DNA of 5,633 bases from Desulfobacterales bacterium (GTDB taxonomy: Bacteria > Desulfobacterota > Desulfobacteria > Desulfobacterales > Desulfobacteraceae), in assembly GCA_022361535.1 (NCBI GenBank), contig JAKSAU010000490.1, positions 1 through 5,633 on the forward strand, given 5' to 3'. A model generated the notes under the pieces. The model saw nothing but the letters and a program-made list of their open reading frames with translations. It was not told the origin of the DNA and did not search any database. Made by a program: the position numbers and the translations under genes. Positions 387 to 5,633 of the stretch are shown here, in pieces (the stretch's first letter is position 1; every line of letters starts with the position of its first letter).

Positions 387-580
387 ATGGTCAGTGAATC
401 AACTAAAATCAAAATGATATTCCTCTGCCTGGTCGGCTAATCTCTTCAATCAGCCTTGCCTGGCTGGGATATCAATTAGTTTTTCCAATTTAGAACTACA
501 CTTACACCCTTAGTGCGCTTCTTATGCTGCATTTTGTGTTTTCTATTAACCGTTTAGATGTGGAGGTGCGTCATGGCTAA
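387..580 (+). pseudogene. probable decayed small membrane-protein gene
   Basis: A near-perfect ribosome binding site, AAGGAGGT at 375-382, lies four bases before ATG 387. Reading gives MVSESTKIKMIFLCLVG and then TAA at 438-440. Moving back one base at 437 continues the hydrophobic segment as LISSISLAWLGYQLVFPI, up to a TAG at 491-493. Past the TAG the same frame continues as NYTYTLSALLMLHFVF and ends DVEVRHG at TAA 578-580. Joined together these would form a protein of about 64 residues with one convincing membrane helix and perhaps a second. The final TAA overlaps the start of the next gene (ATGGCTAA), as in coupled operon genes. Another frame also gives a hydrophobic stretch at 486-554, so the reconstruction is not unique. 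Seen: the strong ribosome binding site, the frame change and the stop. Inferred: decay of a real gene. A 17-codon leader peptide is the alternative. Confidence 0.35.
562..567 (+). promoter_or_regulatory. ribosome binding site of the SEC-C gene
   Basis: GGAGGT lies five bases before ATG 573. It fixes the start of the short frame that reads into the frameshift site. The SEC-C frame itself has no ATG, GTG or TTG until TTG 724, inside the metal-binding motif. Confidence 0.7.
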
Positions 581-813
581 AAAGAATAATACCTATTACC
601 AGGAGAAATTTTGAAGTCACGAGCAAGCGGAGAAAAGGATATCCATCAGAAACAAGAGTTAAGAGAGGCATACGGATAGTTCACGGATCAAAAGAGCTAT
701 ACGAAAAGCTCGGAAGAAACGATTTGTGCCCCTGTGGCTCATTCAGGAAATTTAAAAACTGTTGTTTGAAGTCTAAAAAATACGATGGATCGCTTCGTGA
801 CTATTACTTTTAG
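573..813 (+). CDS. small SEC-C zinc-binding protein, read through a +1 frameshift (or recently frameshifted)
   Basis: ATG 573 opens [13 protein letters not shown] and meets TGA at 612-614. Skipping one T in the TTTT at 609-612 continues smoothly ([18 protein letters not shown]...) to TAG 811-813, giving 79 residues. Residues 48-64 form a SEC-C motif ([10 protein letters not shown]...KNCC) with all four cysteines in CxCx8CC spacing (52, 54, 63, 64); the usual GSG is GSF. The fold binds one zinc. In SecA and YecA such domains contact SecB or the ribosome. The N-terminal part is strongly basic. No membrane segment or signal peptide is seen. The frame after the shift has no usable start before TTG 724, so the motif can only be made by frameshifting from ATG 573. 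The gene begins within the tail of the upstream frame and ends 21 bases before the next gene, so it looks like an operon member. It may be a working recoded gene, a fresh pseudogene or a base-calling error. Its function is unknown; a role at the ribosome is inferred. Confidence 0.7.
601..614 (+). promoter_or_regulatory. RF2-like programmed +1 frameshift site (candidate)
   Basis: The string AGGAG-AAA-TTT-TGA contains an internal Shine-Dalgarno-like element, a three-base spacer, a slippery TTT codon and an in-frame TGA. The bacterial prfB site has the same order and spacing (AGGGGG-TAT-CTT-TGA). Phe-tRNA on TTT can re-pair perfectly with the overlapping TTT after slipping one base, and translation then continues at GAA into the SEC-C protein. 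TGA is followed by A rather than by the C that weakens termination in prfB. That the site works is inferred from sequence alone. Confidence 0.5.
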
Positions 814-834
814 AGAATAGATTGGAGTACTGTT

Positions 835-1644
835 TTGAATTCTATCGTAAAAGCATTCGAAAAAATTGGCACAAGAGTAAAATTTAGCGATCTGTCTAAA
901 AGGCAAACCCGATTCAGAAGAATAAGAAATGCCTCTACAGGCAGGGATATCAGTTTAATTGTTGATATTGAAAAAGATAAACAAGGCGAATTTTATAAAA
1001 TTGAAACAGATGGTTCCGTTGATCTGCATATTATGAATATCGATAAAGAGCTTAATCACCTTTTGCTGTTTGCAAGAGATAAATATAAAGCCAAATATCG
1101 GTTTTTATGCGGTTTGGATGAAAGAGGTTGGTTTGCCGCAGCTGTACCTGGAGCAGTGTCAAACATCAGTGATGCTATGGACAGCTTAAAGCCAAAACAG
1201 GTTATTGCCGCTCAAAAAAACATCAAAACCGAAAAGAAAAACAGAAGAAAGAATGAGGCTTTTTTAAGACAGGGTGAATGGTTTTTTCTTCCTGCACCAG
1301 ATATTTCACCTCCTGCGGAACTGATATTGAAAAATGAACCCATTCAGAGGGGGCCTGGAAACCCCCATAAGGTTCAAGAGATATTCCGAACTGGAGGCGA
1401 GGTGGTATACGTGTGCCGAAAATATCCTCAAGGCGTTTCTTTTAAGAAATATAGAGAGATTATGAAAAATCCTGAGGCAATCCTCATGGGATGGCGCACC
1501 ATGAAGGTTAACATGACAGTGTATGGAAAGGGCAGAGTCACCCACCGAGATCATCAAACCATTGTGTTGAAAGGCTGGTATCAAATTCTTCCAAATCGGG
1601 AAACGGAGTCCTGGTTTATAGAAAACCTGGTCTTTCTTGATTAA
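835..1644 (+). CDS. conserved-looking hypothetical protein linked to RtcB2-PrfH, 269 aa
   Basis: I do not recognise a named family. The TTG start is the only usual start after the preceding TAG at 811-813, and TTGGAG at 822-827 supplies a ribosome binding site seven bases before it. The protein appears soluble, with no signal peptide or membrane helix. Residues 1-45 are basic (SKRQTRFRRIRNASTGR). Residues 86-105 end in a motif-like CGLDERGWFAAAVP. A charged, probably helical, lysine/arginine stretch follows at about 120-145, then RQGEWFFLPAP at 145-155, NPHK at 176-179, GGEVVYVCRKYPQG at 187-200 and a C-terminal GRVTHRDHQTIVL at 233-245 followed by GWY. These dense blocks of Gly, Trp, His and Asp look like a conserved domain, not a remnant. 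The gene lies 70 bases before the ligase on the same strand. A role with the ligase or on damaged rRNA or ribosomes is inferred only from position and basic charge. Confidence 0.8.
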   Translation: MNSIVKAFEKIGTRVKFSDLSKRQTRFRRIRNASTGRDISLIVDIEKDKQGEFYKIETDGSVDLHIMNIDKELNHLLLFARDKYKAKYRFLCGLDERGWFAAAVPGAVSNISDAMDSLKPKQVIAAQKNIKTEKKNRRKNEAFLRQGEWFFLPAPDISPPAELILKNEPIQRGPGNPHKVQEIFRTGGEVVYVCRKYPQGVSFKKYREIMKNPEAILMGWRTMKVNMTVYGKGRVTHRDHQTIVLKGWYQILPNRETESWFIENLVFLD

Positions 1645-1713: not shown

Positions 1714-2847
1714 TTGAATACGATTTTTAAAAATAAAACCGGTATTTGGGTTATTGCCTCAGAGAATAGCTGGATTGAGGGGAAGGCAGAACGACAGTTA
1801 CAGAAAACATCAGAACTTGATGGTGTTGAATACTGTGTTGGTTTGCCGGATATTCATCCAGGCAGGGGCAATCCTGTTGGTGCCGCATATTTAATCAGGG
1901 ATATCATCTATCCTTATTTGATTGGCAATGACGTGGGGTGCGGTATCAGTCTTTTCAGGACTGGTATCAGAAAGAATAAAATTAAAATTGATAAGTGGAT
2001 CAGAAAACTGGGAGATCTCAACGAGCCTTATGGGGCAGGCATTGAGCACTGGATGGATCAACGGGAGCTTAAAAAACATTCAATAAATACTGCTATAGGA
2101 ACCATTGGGGCAGGGAACCATTTTGCCGAACTGCAAACAATAAAAAAAGTATTTAATGAAGAATTGTTTTCTAACGTTGGACTGGACAAAAATTTACTTA
2201 CATTGGTTGTTCACAGTGGTTCCCGGGGTATTGGAGAAACCTTGCTTCGCAGCCATACAGATATCTATGGTGCTGGGGGGCTCAGGGCGGATAGTCAGAA
2301 GGGCAAGAATTATTTAGCTCAGCACGACCAGGCTCTAAAATGGGCAACTTGTAATCGGATAGCCATAGCAGAAAAATTTGTATCCAGAATTGGTACAGAT
2401 TGTCAGCTTATTATTGACACGTGTCATAACAAGATTTCATACGTGATTTACGATAATGAGAGTTTCTGGTTGCATCGAAAAGGAGCTGTTGTTTCAGATT
2501 CAGGGCCTGTTTTAATACCAGGATCAAGAGGCAGTTTGAGTTACCTTGTCAGACCCAAAGGGGCTCAGCGCTATAATTTATGGTCGTTACCCCACGGGGC
2601 AGGGCGGAAATGGAATCGAACCAGTTGCAAGGGAAGGTTAAAAGCTCGATATAATATCAGCTCTCTTAAAAGAACAGGATTTGGTGGTCATGTGATCTGT
2701 GATGATCGAGAGCTTTTATATGAGGAGGCCCCTCAGGCTTATAAAAATATCGATCAGGTTATTCAGGATCTTCTTGATGAAAATCTGGTTGAAGTTATAG
2801 CCACTTTTAAACCCCTCATAACTTACAAAAAAGGAAAGAATAAATGA
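1714..2847 (+). CDS. rtcB2: RtcB2-type RNA ligase
   Basis: RtcB ligases join RNA ends carrying 3'-phosphate or 2',3'-cyclic phosphate to 5'-OH ends, using GTP and Mn2+ through a guanylylated histidine. All active-site blocks are present: DVGCG (Asp73, Cys76), GNHF (His136), HSGSRG (His167), CHN (His238), HRKGA at 254-258, PGSRG at 269-273, the nucleotidyl histidine in PHGAGR (His294) and PQAYKNID near the C-terminus. At 377 residues it is shorter than the housekeeping-type RtcB in this window (400) and diverges from it strongly. This, plus its partner prfH, places it in the RtcB2 group, reported in E. coli to re-ligate 16S rRNA cut in the decoding centre by colicin E3-type nucleases. The start is TTG; only a weak GAAAG precedes it, and the ATG at 1707 runs straight into TAA. 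The stop overlaps the prfH start (ATGA), so the two are translationally coupled. Confidence 0.93.
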   Translation: MNTIFKNKTGIWVIASENSWIEGKAERQLQKTSELDGVEYCVGLPDIHPGRGNPVGAAYLIRDIIYPYLIGNDVGCGISLFRTGIRKNKIKIDKWIRKLGDLNEPYGAGIEHWMDQRELKKHSINTAIGTIGAGNHFAELQTIKKVFNEELFSNVGLDKNLLTLVVHSGSRGIGETLLRSHTDIYGAGGLRADSQKGKNYLAQHDQALKWATCNRIAIAEKFVSRIGTDCQLIIDTCHNKISYVIYDNESFWLHRKGAVVSDSGPVLIPGSRGSLSYLVRPKGAQRYNLWSLPHGAGRKWNRTSCKGRLKARYNISSLKRTGFGGHVICDDRELLYEEAPQAYKNIDQVIQDLLDENLVEVIATFKPLITYKKGKNK

Positions 2848-3473
2848 TAAATTGGTTACAGATAACATCGGGCCGAGGTCCCGAAGAATGCTGCTGGGTT
2901 GTGGCTAAGCTTTCTGAGTGTATTATCAAGGAAGCTGAAATCAATGGAATTTCATGTAAAATTATTGAAACGATCCCTGACGGCAGATCAAAAAGGCTGA
3001 AATCTGCATTGATTTCACTTGAAGGGGATGCTGTCGTATCCTTTGCAAAGTCATTTGAGGGGACTGTTCAGTGGATTGGTAAAAGCATGTTCAGACCACA
3101 TCATAAACGAAAGAACTGGTATGTTGGCGTAAATCTTTTTTCGCCTCCTGAAGAAAACAAGTGGTCTTTTAGTCAATTGAAAGTTGAAAAGATGAGATCC
3201 TCCGGTCCTGGTGGACAGAATGTTAATAAAAGAGAAACTGCTACCAGGATCACACACATACCAACCGGGTTGAGTGTGACAGCTCAGGAGGAGCGTTCAC
3301 AGCATCTGAATAAAAAACTGGCGCTAAGCCGCTTAGATGAATTGCTGAAACAAAAAGAAAGTGAAACGGAAATGAAAAATCAAAATAGTCGCTGGAATGG
3401 GCATAATAGACTTGAAAGGGGGAATCCTGTTCGGGTTTATAAAAATGAAAACTTCAGTTTGACGAGATCTTGA
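2844..3473 (+). CDS. prfH: peptide chain release factor homologue PrfH
   Basis: PrfH is a shortened class I release-factor homologue. It hydrolyses peptidyl-tRNA on ribosomes damaged in the decoding centre, so that the freed ribosome can be repaired by RtcB2 (known from E. coli; inferred here). The catalytic loop GPGGQNVNK is at 121-129, with GGQ at 123-125. It is followed by the release-factor-type block RITHIPTGLSV and the tail SQHLNKKLA (152-160). The family signature RPHHKRKNW lies at 84-92 and RLERGNPVRVY near the C-terminus. The stop-codon recognition domain of RF1/RF2 is absent, since the N-terminal half is short (about 110 residues before GGQ). The length of 209 is close to the roughly 200 expected. 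ATG 2844 overlaps the rtcB2 stop by four bases, and AAGGAAAG at 2831-2838 is the ribosome binding site. It is the last gene of the unit. Confidence 0.94.
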   Translation: MINWLQITSGRGPEECCWVVAKLSECIIKEAEINGISCKIIETIPDGRSKRLKSALISLEGDAVVSFAKSFEGTVQWIGKSMFRPHHKRKNWYVGVNLFSPPEENKWSFSQLKVEKMRSSGPGGQNVNKRETATRITHIPTGLSVTAQEERSQHLNKKLALSRLDELLKQKESETEMKNQNSRWNGHNRLERGNPVRVYKNENFSLTRS

Positions 3474-3514: not shown

Positions 3515-4717
3515 TCACCCTTTCACAACACCTAGGGGATGAAGCTTATGCAGGGGTTTGATCAAATCAAGCTCGGCTTCAATTACATTTTCAATATTTT
3601 TGTATGCCTGGGGCGCTTCTCCCAGGTCGTACATGCCCTTGGCTTTCCCACGTCTGACCTTGTTCCAGCGGTCGTAAACGATGCCCTGCATTGCCTGATC
3701 GCAGTCTTCAGGTGTAAGCTCTCTGGTTGCCTGTAACCTTCCCAGAACTCTTCCCGCTCCGTGCGAACAAGACATGAATGACTCAGGATTACCCAGACCT
3801 TCAACAATGAAGGAAGGTGTTCCCATTGAACCGGGGATAATTCCAGTCTCTCCCTGTTTGGCAGAGGTTGCCCCTTTTCTATGAATCCACACATTCTTAT
3901 TGAAATGATTTTCCAGGGCAGCATAGTTATGATGAATATTAACTTCATCGGCAAATTCGGTCTCAGGGAAGACCTCGGTAAAAGCATCCTTAAACCGATT
4001 CATGATTCTTCGGCGGTTTTCCTGCGCATAAGAAAGTGCAAAATTCATATCATTGATATAATCTTGACCTTCCGTTGAGTCTGTCGGCAGGAAAGCCAGA
4101 TCTGTTCCTGGTGTATCCGCATGCCACTTTTGATTCAACTTAACAGCAATGTCATTGTAGAATCGTGCTATGACGTTGCCCAGATGTCGTGAACCGGAGT
4201 GAATCATCAGCCAAATCCGGTCGTCATCACCGGCCTGTATCTCAATAAAATGGTTACCGCCTCCAAGGCTGCCTAAATTCTTAAAGGCAAGTTTTTTGAC
4301 ATGGGACGAATACCATCCTCTTTCTTCATAGGCTTCCATATCATCAAGGTTTTCCCATGTCTGCGGTGCGTTATGGGATTTGCCTTCCCCGCAGGGAACA
4401 TATTTTTTTACCAATGTAACCACTTCCCTCAGGCTGTTCCGGCTGGTTTCGGATACCGGGAGGCTGGTTCTTACCGATCCCATACCACAACCGATATCCA
4501 CACCCACGGCATTGGGGATGACGGCATTGTCCGCGGCAATGACGCCGCCGATGGGCATACCGTAACCCGGATGGCAGTCCGGCATCAGCGCTACGTGGCG
4601 GAAAACAACAGGGTGCACGGCCAGATCCTCGGCTTGTTTCATTGCAAGCCCTTCAAGGTTTGAACACCACGATTTTATAGGGACTTTATAGTTCTTTTTT
4701 TTTTTTACCCATTCCAT
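3515..4717 (-). CDS. rtcB: RNA-splicing ligase RtcB (housekeeping type)
   Basis: A complete RtcB of 400 residues, near the 408 of E. coli. It seals 3'-phosphate or 2',3'-cyclic phosphate to 5'-OH RNA ends with GTP and Mn2+ in tRNA or rRNA repair. Visible motifs are MPDCHPGYG at 45-53, VDIGCGM (Asp74, Cys77), GNHF (His156), HSGSR (His173), IHHNY (His263), HRKGA at 279-283, IPGSMG at 294-299, CSHGAGR with the guanylylated His319, and the C-terminal VVKG. AGGAGG at 4726-4731 supports the ATG at 4717. It follows rtcA by 28 bases, so the two form an rtcA-rtcB operon, in the reverse order of the E. coli rtcBA operon. An A12 run spans codons 4-8. The sequence resembles E. coli RtcB far more closely than the RtcB2 next to it. 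No RtcR regulator lies within the window. Confidence 0.96.
   Translation of the reverse strand: MEWVKKKKNYKVPIKSWCSNLEGLAMKQAEDLAVHPVVFRHVALMPDCHPGYGMPIGGVIAADNAVIPNAVGVDIGCGMGSVRTSLPVSETSRNSLREVVTLVKKYVPCGEGKSHNAPQTWENLDDMEAYEERGWYSSHVKKLAFKNLGSLGGGNHFIEIQAGDDDRIWLMIHSGSRHLGNVIARFYNDIAVKLNQKWHADTPGTDLAFLPTDSTEGQDYINDMNFALSYAQENRRRIMNRFKDAFTEVFPETEFADEVNIHHNYAALENHFNKNVWIHRKGATSAKQGETGIIPGSMGTPSFIVEGLGNPESFMSCSHGAGRVLGRLQATRELTPEDCDQAMQGIVYDRWNKVRRGKAKGMYDLGEAPQAYKNIENVIEAELDLIKPLHKLHPLGVVKG
4695..4706 (-). repeat. A12 homopolymer at the 5' end of rtcB
   Basis: Twelve consecutive A on the coding strand (T12 on the plus strand) encode the end of Val4 and Lys5-Lys8. With 11 A the frame reaches TAA after RTIKSL; with 13 A it reaches TAA after EL. 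Slippage by polymerase in either direction would therefore abolish RtcB. Whether it happens is unknown. Confidence 0.8.
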
Positions 4718-4745: not shown

Positions 4746-5633
4746 TTAATCCTCAACTGATATCTGCCAGCGGCGGCCGGCAATCTCTGTGCAGTTGATA
4801 TTCAGGTCTAAAAATTGTTTCACGACCTCAATATTTGTCATTGTATGACGGCTGGGCGGCTGGGTGATGAATGAGCCGCCGCCGGCCATGGCCAAAGGGA
4901 TTAACAATTGATCCGCAAGATATTTTCCCACGGGGGCATCAGAGGCCAGATAGCTTTTCACCTGACCCACACATCTTTTGGCGACCTTTTCAGCGGTAAC
5001 ACCTTTGACGCCGAACCCGGTAAACACTTCCGTTAGATTTTCGCTTTCCACGCAGAGCGTCAATACGTTCCCCGGTCCATGGGAGTCAGGAACGTTCACA
5101 ACTTCACAGTTTTCCCAACCCAATAGCTTTTTAACTATTTTAATTTCCCTTGCTGCAATATTTTCAGGCAGGCTGGCCACAAACGCCTTTGCCGTTTTAT
5201 TTAATATCTCACCCCGGTGGGTGAGGTCTATTTTACCCAGAGGGGCGGGGGCAATCTCTACTCTGACTTTTCCTCCGCCGGCCGGATAGAAACCGGGGCG
5301 AATCAACGATGCTGACACGGTCGGGCCCATCTTGTTGATGAGCCCAAGGAATGTCTGATCGAGAAAATCAAAAGAAGGGGCATACGGGTTATGGGTACCT
5401 CCTTCCAGTATGATTTCGGAGGGCCCGTCTGCCGTCAGCAATGCCGGCAATATTGCCTGGAGGACCAGCGTGCAGCTTCCTGCCGTTCCGATTGCGAAAT
5501 TATAATTGCCGGCAATGATGCTGCCCGGCTCAAATTTAAGAGTCTTTGAACCGATGTACGCACCGTCTGCCTTTGCATTACCCACCTTGGCTGCGGCGTT
5601 GACGCAGGTCAGGTGCTGCCGCATCAGTCCCGG
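4746..5633 (-). CDS. rtcA: RNA 3'-terminal phosphate cyclase RtcA, N-terminus cut by window edge
   Basis: RtcA uses ATP to turn RNA 3'-phosphates into 2',3'-cyclic phosphates through a covalent histidine-AMP, making ends that RtcB can seal. The visible 295 residues begin PGLMRQHLT, matching PGLLRQHLT around residue 45 of E. coli RtcA, so about 44 residues with the GEGGGQ motif lie outside the window. The Met at 5622-5624 is therefore internal. Further family blocks are FAIGTAGSCTLVLQ, LEGGTHNPYAPSFDF, RPGFYPAGGG, the HGPGN segment, YLASDAPVGKYLADQLLIP and PSRHTMTNI, whose His (residue 263 of the visible part) corresponds to the adenylylated His309 of E. coli. The gene ends at TAA 4746-4748, 28 bases before rtcB, and is very probably co-transcribed with it. 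Any promoter or RtcR-type regulator would lie beyond 5633. Confidence 0.95.
   Translation of the reverse strand, partial: PGLMRQHLTCVNAAAKVGNAKADGAYIGSKTLKFEPGSIIAGNYNFAIGTAGSCTLVLQAILPALLTADGPSEIILEGGTHNPYAPSFDFLDQTFLGLINKMGPTVSASLIRPGFYPAGGGKVRVEIAPAPLGKIDLTHRGEILNKTAKAFVASLPENIAAREIKIVKKLLGWENCEVVNVPDSHGPGNVLTLCVESENLTEVFTGFGVKGVTAEKVAKRCVGQVKSYLASDAPVGKYLADQLLIPLAMAGGGSFITQPPSRHTMTNIEVVKQFLDLNINCTEIAGRRWQISVED

Follow-up and report, generated by a model that had tools for sequence, protein, structure and literature searches.

Small SEC-C genes that appear to require several +1 frameshifts at UUU-U/C, in a desulfobacterial RNA-repair locus and in its relatives

Comparison of the small SEC-C gene of a desulfobacterial RNA-repair locus with its relatives shows a family of genes whose reading appears to require +1 frameshifts, usually two to four per gene and nearly all of them at UUU followed by U or C. 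Judged from the compared sequences, it is close to certain that +1 frameshifting occurs in the SEC-C gene itself. We further propose that slippage of the P-site tRNA-Phe probably acts as a multi-step gate that senses weak frame-keeping in RNA-damage loci, although the sensing step, taken alone, falls somewhat short of an even chance. To our knowledge, prfB is the main case of programmed +1 frameshifting among the cellular genes of bacteria. If a single short gene needs several such shifts, at a simple P-site codon and with none of the prfB elements, the view of what bacterial ribosomes do routinely would change. A multi-shift family would also make it clear why gene prediction renders its members as broken or shortened proteins.

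The window, i.e., the whole stretch of 5,633 nucleotides that was analysed, is an RNA-repair locus in which the SEC-C gene lies upstream of the repair genes. Its features are as follows.

562..568, + strand: Shine-Dalgarno (SD) sequence GGAGGTG of the SEC-C gene (read from the sequence; start census)
573, + strand: start codon ATG of the SEC-C gene (read from the sequence)
573..611, + strand: 0-frame leader of 13 codons (read from the sequence)
601..605, + strand: AGGAG, an SD-like element not kept in relatives (sequence and site contexts)
609..614, + strand: predicted frameshift site A, TTT TGA (TTT 609-611, TGA 612-614)
613..810, + strand: +1 frame with the conserved core and C-terminal part of the SEC-C protein, to ...DYYF
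727..765, + strand: SEC-C zinc motif CPCG...FKNCC
808..813, + strand: predicted frameshift site D, TTT TAG, the apparent stop (TAG 811-813)
812..820, + strand: AGA GAA TAG, the conserved R-E-stop end after the second +1 shift
835..1644, + strand: neighbour of 269 aa with a TTG start and no Pfam match, between the SEC-C gene and rtcB2
1714..2847, + strand: rtcB2 (TIGR03073, release_rtcB)
2844..3473, + strand: prfH (TIGR03072)
3515..4717, - strand: second rtcB (profile match)
4746..5633, - strand: RNA 3'-terminal phosphate cyclase (rtcA), which runs off the window

An initial sequence-only reading had described a ribosome binding site and an ATG that lead into 13 codons ending at TTT TGA, and this description is exact. 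The same reading had seen an intact +1 frame with a SEC-C motif and without a start codon of its own, which is confirmed: the frame is open from 613 as far as the TAG at 811-813 and carries CPCGS...CC, there is no ATG, GTG or TTG in it between the upstream TAA (547-549) and the core, and the shift-corrected protein, which is basic, contains the CxCx8CC motif and matches PF02810 (SEC-C) at residues 48-65 (E 1.1e-7; 32.0 bits versus a cut-off of 20.4). At site A, a +1 move from UUU onto the overlapping UUU would make GAA at 613 the next codon, and reading TTTT as F gives a product of 79 residues. The observation at 573-813 thus holds, but the end had been set slightly short: the TTT TAG taken for the stop is a predicted +1 site that recurs in relatives, and the conserved R-E-stop lies at 812-820. 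Under what we call the TTT-Y rule (an in-frame TTT ahead of T or C counts as Phe, and one base is then skipped), the window gene runs from its SD-start through two shifts (609-612 and 808-811) to a protein of 81 residues ending in F-R-E and a stop, the F-R-E/D-stop layout by which we define the multi-site family. The predicted structure of the SEC-C protein (mean pLDDT 57.5) is too poor for use, and a search of solved structures returned only other SEC-C zinc knuckles, those of SecA and YchJ (6 sequences).

To collect relatives, 5.8 billion proteins were searched with the shift-corrected protein, which gave 1305 homologues at E up to 1e-3. Among the 120 of these that were aligned with the query, many predicted proteins start late, stop abruptly after a Phe or lose homology there. 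At least 578 matches were confirmed in species genomes, and the DNA of 80 was taken for analysis, along with three viral contigs and further genome loci; after removal of duplicates and of L104, dropped for its low score, 99 distinct genes, including that of the window, were analysed. Records with a phylum name cover at least seven phyla (Planctomycetota, Pseudomonadota, Verrucomicrobiota, Acidobacteriota, Thermodesulfobacteriota, Binatota and Cyanobacteriota), and three chromosome-sized records (L041, L075 and L076) carry the pattern. The gene is sparse: with the seed genome counted, it was present in 2/247, 10/199, 2/194, 3/240, 2/274 and 3/149 genomes of six phylum- or class-level samples, and in 2/145 genomes of a family-level sample. 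A search at the genus level for stability within Caulobacter yielded one genome only. No match was found in a phage collection, and a plasmid search gave three records, in the best of which 62% of the query was covered. The full family protein mostly has 78-83 residues and mostly ends in F-R-E/D and a stop.

The shifts fall at four Phe positions, namely A (F13-E), B (F60-K in CPCGSxRxF-KNCC), C (F70-D) and D (F79-R-E-stop), the last being served by a neighbouring TTT where the residue pair is FF. A frameshift-aware alignment of the 99 genes, scored such that a skip after TTT-Y is cheaper than elsewhere and a -1 shift slightly dearer, placed 164 +1 events and no -1 event past the core start, with 148 of the 164 at TTT-Y under this scoring that favours it; 64 genes had two events, 33 had one, one gene had three, and L022 had none. 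When all costs were equal, there were 153 +1 events and three -1 events (L024, L037 and L064), and five genes had none. Under equal costs, 1 of the 153 events was put on TTT-Y, the ties mostly falling one codon earlier. Since the protein is the same whether the base is dropped ahead of TTT or behind it, the alignment fixes the direction of the shift and its place to about one codon; the exact base is beyond what DNA alone can show.

Under the first scoring, site B lies at TTT-Y in 28 genes, where the next codon is CAA (22), TAA (5) or TAG (1). Site C does so in 49 genes (TGA in 42, CGA in 6, TGT in 1), with three more genes at CTG TGA, and site D in 46 (TAG in 35, CAG in 8, CCG in 2, TCG in 1), with one further gene at TTG. 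The commonest site A in the relatives is TTT CGA. Thirty-seven events were placed off the four site columns, and 25 of them are also at TTT-Y; the other 12 are in L014, L018, L027, L029, L030, L036, L051, L072, L076, L078, L099 and L105, among which those in L027, L036, L051 and L076 abut CTT TGA and those in L018 and L078 can equally be read as TTT-C. Altogether, 16 of the 164 events were placed off TTT-Y, including the three at CTG TGA and several beside CTT TGA. At unshifted sites, Phe is mostly encoded by TTC or by a TTT with a purine after it. In-frame TTT-Y was left unshifted in the alignment in 17 cases: for six of them, TTT TAG at site D, this is only because the alignment stops there; another five belong to a G-F-P position (TTT-CCN) that must stay in frame; and the remaining six are single cases at or beside site D. 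The end of the gene can be read in the DNA as TTTY-AGR-GAN-stop in 42 of the 99 genes, as TTTY-AGR-stop in 5 and as a version with CGN-GAN-stop in 11; TTTYAG with another sequel is found in 18 and something else in 23.

An SD-start in the frame that needs a +1 shift at site A is present in 83 of the 99 genes, four of which also have one in the core frame. Seven genes have their SD-start in the third frame, mostly ahead of runs like TTT TTT TCG A, which is consistent with two +1 slips or one -1 slip (third-frame TTT TTT TC leaders at site A: L017, L021, L026, L034, L051, L081 and L100). In eight genes, mainly of the Verrucomicrobiota type that needs site B, the SD-start is in the core frame only, and one gene has it nowhere; an earlier count with another choice of start gave 77, 9, 5 and 3 of 94 genes for these four classes. 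Counting all sites, three shifts are predicted in 51 genes, two in 40, four in 6 and one in 1, with one gene unplaced, so that at least two would be needed in 97 of the 98 genes whose start could be placed. In 11 genes, among them that of the window, site D is the sole shift after the core and adds two or three residues. The proposed obligatory +1 shift at TTT TGA in the SEC-C gene is thereby supported by the relatives. When homologues with an uninterrupted frame were looked for, 98 of the 99 genes turned out to need a shift at one or more of sites A, B and C; the exception, L022, also has no detectable SD-start.

A test that does not depend on alignment costs leads to the same four-base motif. 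It used 97 genes with an SD-start, chosen regardless of frame, and 183 rules of the form "after codon X and a Y, R or any base, skip one". The TTT-Y rule carried 86 of the 97 genes into the core and 67 to the conserved end, compared with 78 and 48 for TTT followed by any base and with 6 and 0 for plain reading. The best rule on another codon brought 60 genes into the core and none to the end, and no such rule completes more than one. The same sequences served both to find the TTT-Y rule and to test it; it is the 183-way comparison that shows its isolation. A blind scan that set out from the SD-ATG starts of the fetched loci gave, under the TTT-Y rule, 89 candidates with one cluster of at least three loci, which is the SEC-C gene (68 loci); five control rules gave 19-34 candidates, among which pieces of the SEC-C gene clustered, or nothing did. 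No second conserved gene cluster was found under the TTT-Y rule in the fetched loci. The neighbouring genes read TTT-Y as ordinary triplets (116 in-frame cases in 55 intact ORFs), and TTT-Y is thus ordinarily unshifted.

Conservation beyond the shifts has the form expected of a protein. In the corrected frame, mismatches at the three codon positions are 0.19/0.15/0.60 in the core, 0.36/0.26/0.59 past site B (28 genes) and 0.32/0.18/0.53 past site C (59 genes), a pattern that is the signature of putative protein-coding sequence after sites B and C. The leader shows 0.60/0.55/0.65, a weak coding signature. On the tree, at least 17 changes are required for site B and at least 13 for site C, which is suggestive only of independent origins because only 4 of the 96 inner branches are starred.

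The element common to the sites is a tRNA-Phe on UUU that is predicted to be able to re-pair with UUU or UUC. Other candidate drivers fared less well. An unusual RNA fold was sought in five stretches of four loci and none was found (z from -1.7 to +1.8), and a stimulatory RNA structure was therefore rejected, all five folded stretches being ordinary. Transcriptional slippage on long T runs was rejected upon inspection because the T run at TTTCGA and TTTCAA sites is often only three long; some contexts of sites A and D have six or seven. A prfB-like SD element as a general driver was rejected for sites A, C and D, with some enrichment at B only. SD-like runs of at least 5 at a spacing of 1-5 were present in 1 of 84 site-A contexts (0.9 expected), in 6 of 28 at site B (0.8 expected, maximum 5 in 200 shuffles), in 1 of 52 at site C and in 0 of 47 at site D. 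In L056 and L065, AGGAGG or GGAGG lies three bases before the TTT CAA of site B, which is the spacing of prfB with no stop codon.

The figures for site A bear directly on the explanation that had been suggested for the window, an RF2-style shift with the layout of prfB, and on its fuller form, in which an SD-like element and slow termination by RF2 at UGA would drive the shift as in the autoregulation of prfB. The window does have AGGAG, separated from the TTT at 609-611 by AAA (AGGAG-AAA-TTT-TGA), but in the desulfobacterial relatives L004 and L096 its place is taken by CAGGCAAAA and CAGGCAAGG, respectively. Whereas the sequence-only reading had held a chance placement of this element to be unlikely, its absence from L004 and L096, together with 1 match in 84 contexts for 0.9 expected from shuffles, indicates that the placement in the window may be due to chance. 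The comparison of homologues thus upheld a recurring shift at TTT but neither the TGA, which is variable, nor the upstream AGGAG. In favour of a prfB-type mechanism, TGA follows TTT at site C in 42 genes and CTG in three, CTT TGA is found in L027, L036, L051 and L076, and SD-like runs are in excess at site B; however, enrichment is absent at A, C and D, and the next codon may also be CAA (22 at B), TAG (35 at D and one at B), CAG (8 at D) or CGA (6 at C), while the accessible text of a survey of 8,164 prfB motifs reports no TAG (PMC12421855). As the SD-like element is unconserved, the shifts are serial and the codon after TTT varies and is often a sense codon, prfB-type control as a general explanation is contradicted by the putative site contexts, and we regard it as very unlikely. 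Sequencing errors or decaying genes deserve practically no weight: many of the records are metagenome bins and a few members do look damaged (L104 with its low score, L105 with an extra shift in a G run), but shifts in the same direction recur at the same residues in about 100 sequences, chromosome-sized records included, which excludes an extra T as the general explanation, and conservation past the shifts is codon-like. It is also very improbable indeed that site A, instead of being a frameshift, ends a leader peptide, with translation starting anew in the core frame. The leader is weakly conserved by codon, many planctomycete members have an ATG in FETM-SKRR, and some leaders (e.g., that of L017) end in an overlapping ATGA; yet the core frame lacks any ATG, GTG or TTG in 26 of the 99 genes, that of the window included, and sites B, C and D would be left unexplained.

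Two further explanations accept the shifts and differ as to what they serve or what makes them. A dedicated tRNA-Phe might decode UUUY as four bases. Lack of modification at G37 classically promotes +1 shifting, and a G37 following A36 would escape methylation; of the 12 tRNA-Phe genes found in the fetched SEC-C loci, 11 carry G37 in place of A37 (loci with such genes: L017, L020, L030, L036, L054, L055, L064, L071, L076 and L001), and the array-type G37 form also occurs away from the SEC-C gene in G306 (two), G439 and G002. However, in a survey of the best match per genome (two for G004 and G306), the 28 genomes bearing the gene gave the ordinary A37 tRNA-Phe in 18, the array-type G37 form in 4, an array tRNA-Phe with A37 in 2 and no tRNA-Phe called at the match in 4. 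Because 18 of the 28 best matches are ordinary, the G37 tRNA-Phe is a lead rather than the explanation; it was rejected as a general driver, and we consider a dedicated four-base tRNA improbable. Some of the tRNA-Phe at SEC-C loci have unusual T arms, with an apparent A-G mismatch 53-61 or a T loop without TTC. Alternatively, the shifts may be real and the product needed in constant trace amounts, so that serial inefficient shifts hold expression low and nothing is sensed. The yield would then be multiplied down by the serial sites, and the failure to find a stimulatory element does suggest low efficiency; a weak ribosome binding site would suffice for this purpose, though, yet many members have long SD matches like AGGAGGTG, and the context of RNA repair and tRNA arrays suggests a role related to damage. 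On balance, this explanation is unlikely, if less so than the others.

We therefore return to the proposed gate. The P-site tRNA-Phe would let go of UUU and re-pair fully with the UUU or UUC that overlaps it; the next codon of the 0-frame (UGA, CGA, CAA, UAG or others) would go unread, the Phe would be kept, and reading would resume one base on. The serial shift sites would act as a gate, as output should drop steeply with each shift, and the SEC-C protein would consequently become abundant only in cells whose ribosomes readily slip out of frame at UUU, for instance because a tRNA or the ribosome is damaged. Such a trigger would fit the RNA-repair genes and tRNA arrays of the neighbourhood. 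SEC-C domains bind ribosomes, as in SecA and YecA, and the protein is probably a ribosome-binding factor. The serial layout suggests that the output of the gene depends on the ribosome losing its place, and we infer that it may be a sensor of frame-keeping or of tRNA damage. The frequent RNA-repair and tRNA-array setting makes it testable whether the failure to keep the reading frame is what calls for the repair of translation. A related view, possible though rather doubtful, is that the family uses a local four-base code, in which UUUY means Phe up to four times per gene and is read correctly only by ribosomes or tRNA-Phe in an altered, shift-prone state. On this view, the gene would constitute a frame-fidelity alarm, in which damage to tRNA or to the decoding centre leads directly to synthesis of a ribosome-binding repair or rescue factor.

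Several known systems share parts of this behaviour. In prfB, as proposed here, a P-site tRNA slips +1 onto an overlapping codon, and TTT TGA at site A of the window and at most sites C, like the CTT TGA at some sites C, resembles its motif. According to the accessible part of the survey mentioned above, prfB has one site, the slippery sequence among its 8,164 motifs is nearly always CTTT, a hyper-conserved AGGGGG lies 3 nt upstream, and the stop is TGA or TAA only, never TAG; a poly-T version in 21 genomes is read by tRNA-Phe and keeps the SD element (PMC12421855). In contrast, the SEC-C family usually has two to four sites per gene, uses TTT, does not conserve the SD element and allows sense codons and TAG. 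The window gene itself has TTT T instead of CUU-U, a TGA at site A and a TAG at site D in positions where many relatives have sense codons, an SD-like element 3 nt upstream that has a counterpart in 1 of 84 site-A contexts, and a SEC-C protein as its product instead of RF2. In E. coli, CUU_U is described as far more shift-prone than UUU_U in the accessible text of PMC5009743.

The +1 motif UUU_CGN of plant amalgaviruses and influenza PA-X (PMC5052127 and PMC3498833, accessible parts) is similar in that tRNA-Phe slips from UUU to UUC with CGN in the A site, and TTT CGA is the commonest site A of the family. That motif is a single site in eukaryotic viral mRNAs, with an efficiency at the influenza site given as about 1-2% in reticulocyte lysate in the accessible text (PMC5052127), whereas the SEC-C sites are bacterial, serial and apparently obligatory, and those of the window are TTT TGA and TTT TAG. 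Multi-frameshift genes of Euplotes and of mitochondria likewise have at least two shifts per gene, and those of Euplotes are tied to altered recognition by release factors, as far as the accessible text of PMC5009743 goes; the SEC-C case differs in being found in bacteria, in one gene family, with neighbouring genes unaffected. By titles and the beginnings of abstracts, no description of a multi-shift SEC-C gene was found, a scope that left most subscription papers outside.

The window genes at 1714-3473 match both family models of the RtcB2-PrfH operon and are adjacent (TIGR03073, 444.7 bits, cut-off 271.8; TIGR03072, 250.4 bits, cut-off 166.65). This operon protects E. coli from colicin E3, according to the accessible part of PMC9223846. 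A search by term for SEC-C in PMC9223846, PMC1586002 and PMC3711429 gave nothing, and in the accessible texts the term frameshift is absent from PMC9223846 and refers to RF2 in PMC1586002. The repair locus of the window has two rtcB genes on opposite strands, one with prfH and the other with rtcA, and relatives of the 269-aa neighbour are also found near the SEC-C gene in L003, L031 and L050. When similar neighbours are grouped, an RtcB-like cluster covers 11 loci, the window included (three confirmed by Pfam), and further clusters are PrfH (3 loci, two confirmed), SPFH/Band-7 (6) and HNH (4); RlaP, Thg1, TROVE/Ro60 and HD-AAA_33 recur near the gene as well. Among 50 neighbour proteins tested, taken from part of the loci, unrelated ones such as dnaG, an integrase and fumarase are present too, and some loci have no RNA-repair neighbour among the proteins tested.

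Predicted tRNA genes are present in the fetched flanks of 26 of 94 loci, and eleven loci have at least 16, some members of the family sitting among up to 43. The accessible text of PMC12803027 calls tRNA array units putative antidefence systems; their tie to the SEC-C gene comes from the present analysis. Given the unrelated neighbours and the 50 proteins from part of the loci, the link of the SEC-C gene to RNA-repair loci and large tRNA arrays is frequent, not universal. Predicted tRNAs with two- or four-base anticodons, which may be false predictions, lie near the gene in L002 (2634-2721), L005 (2993-3066) and L075. The viral contig L001 combines the SEC-C gene with 21 predicted tRNA genes of odd make-up, mostly for Leu, Phe, Ser and Tyr.
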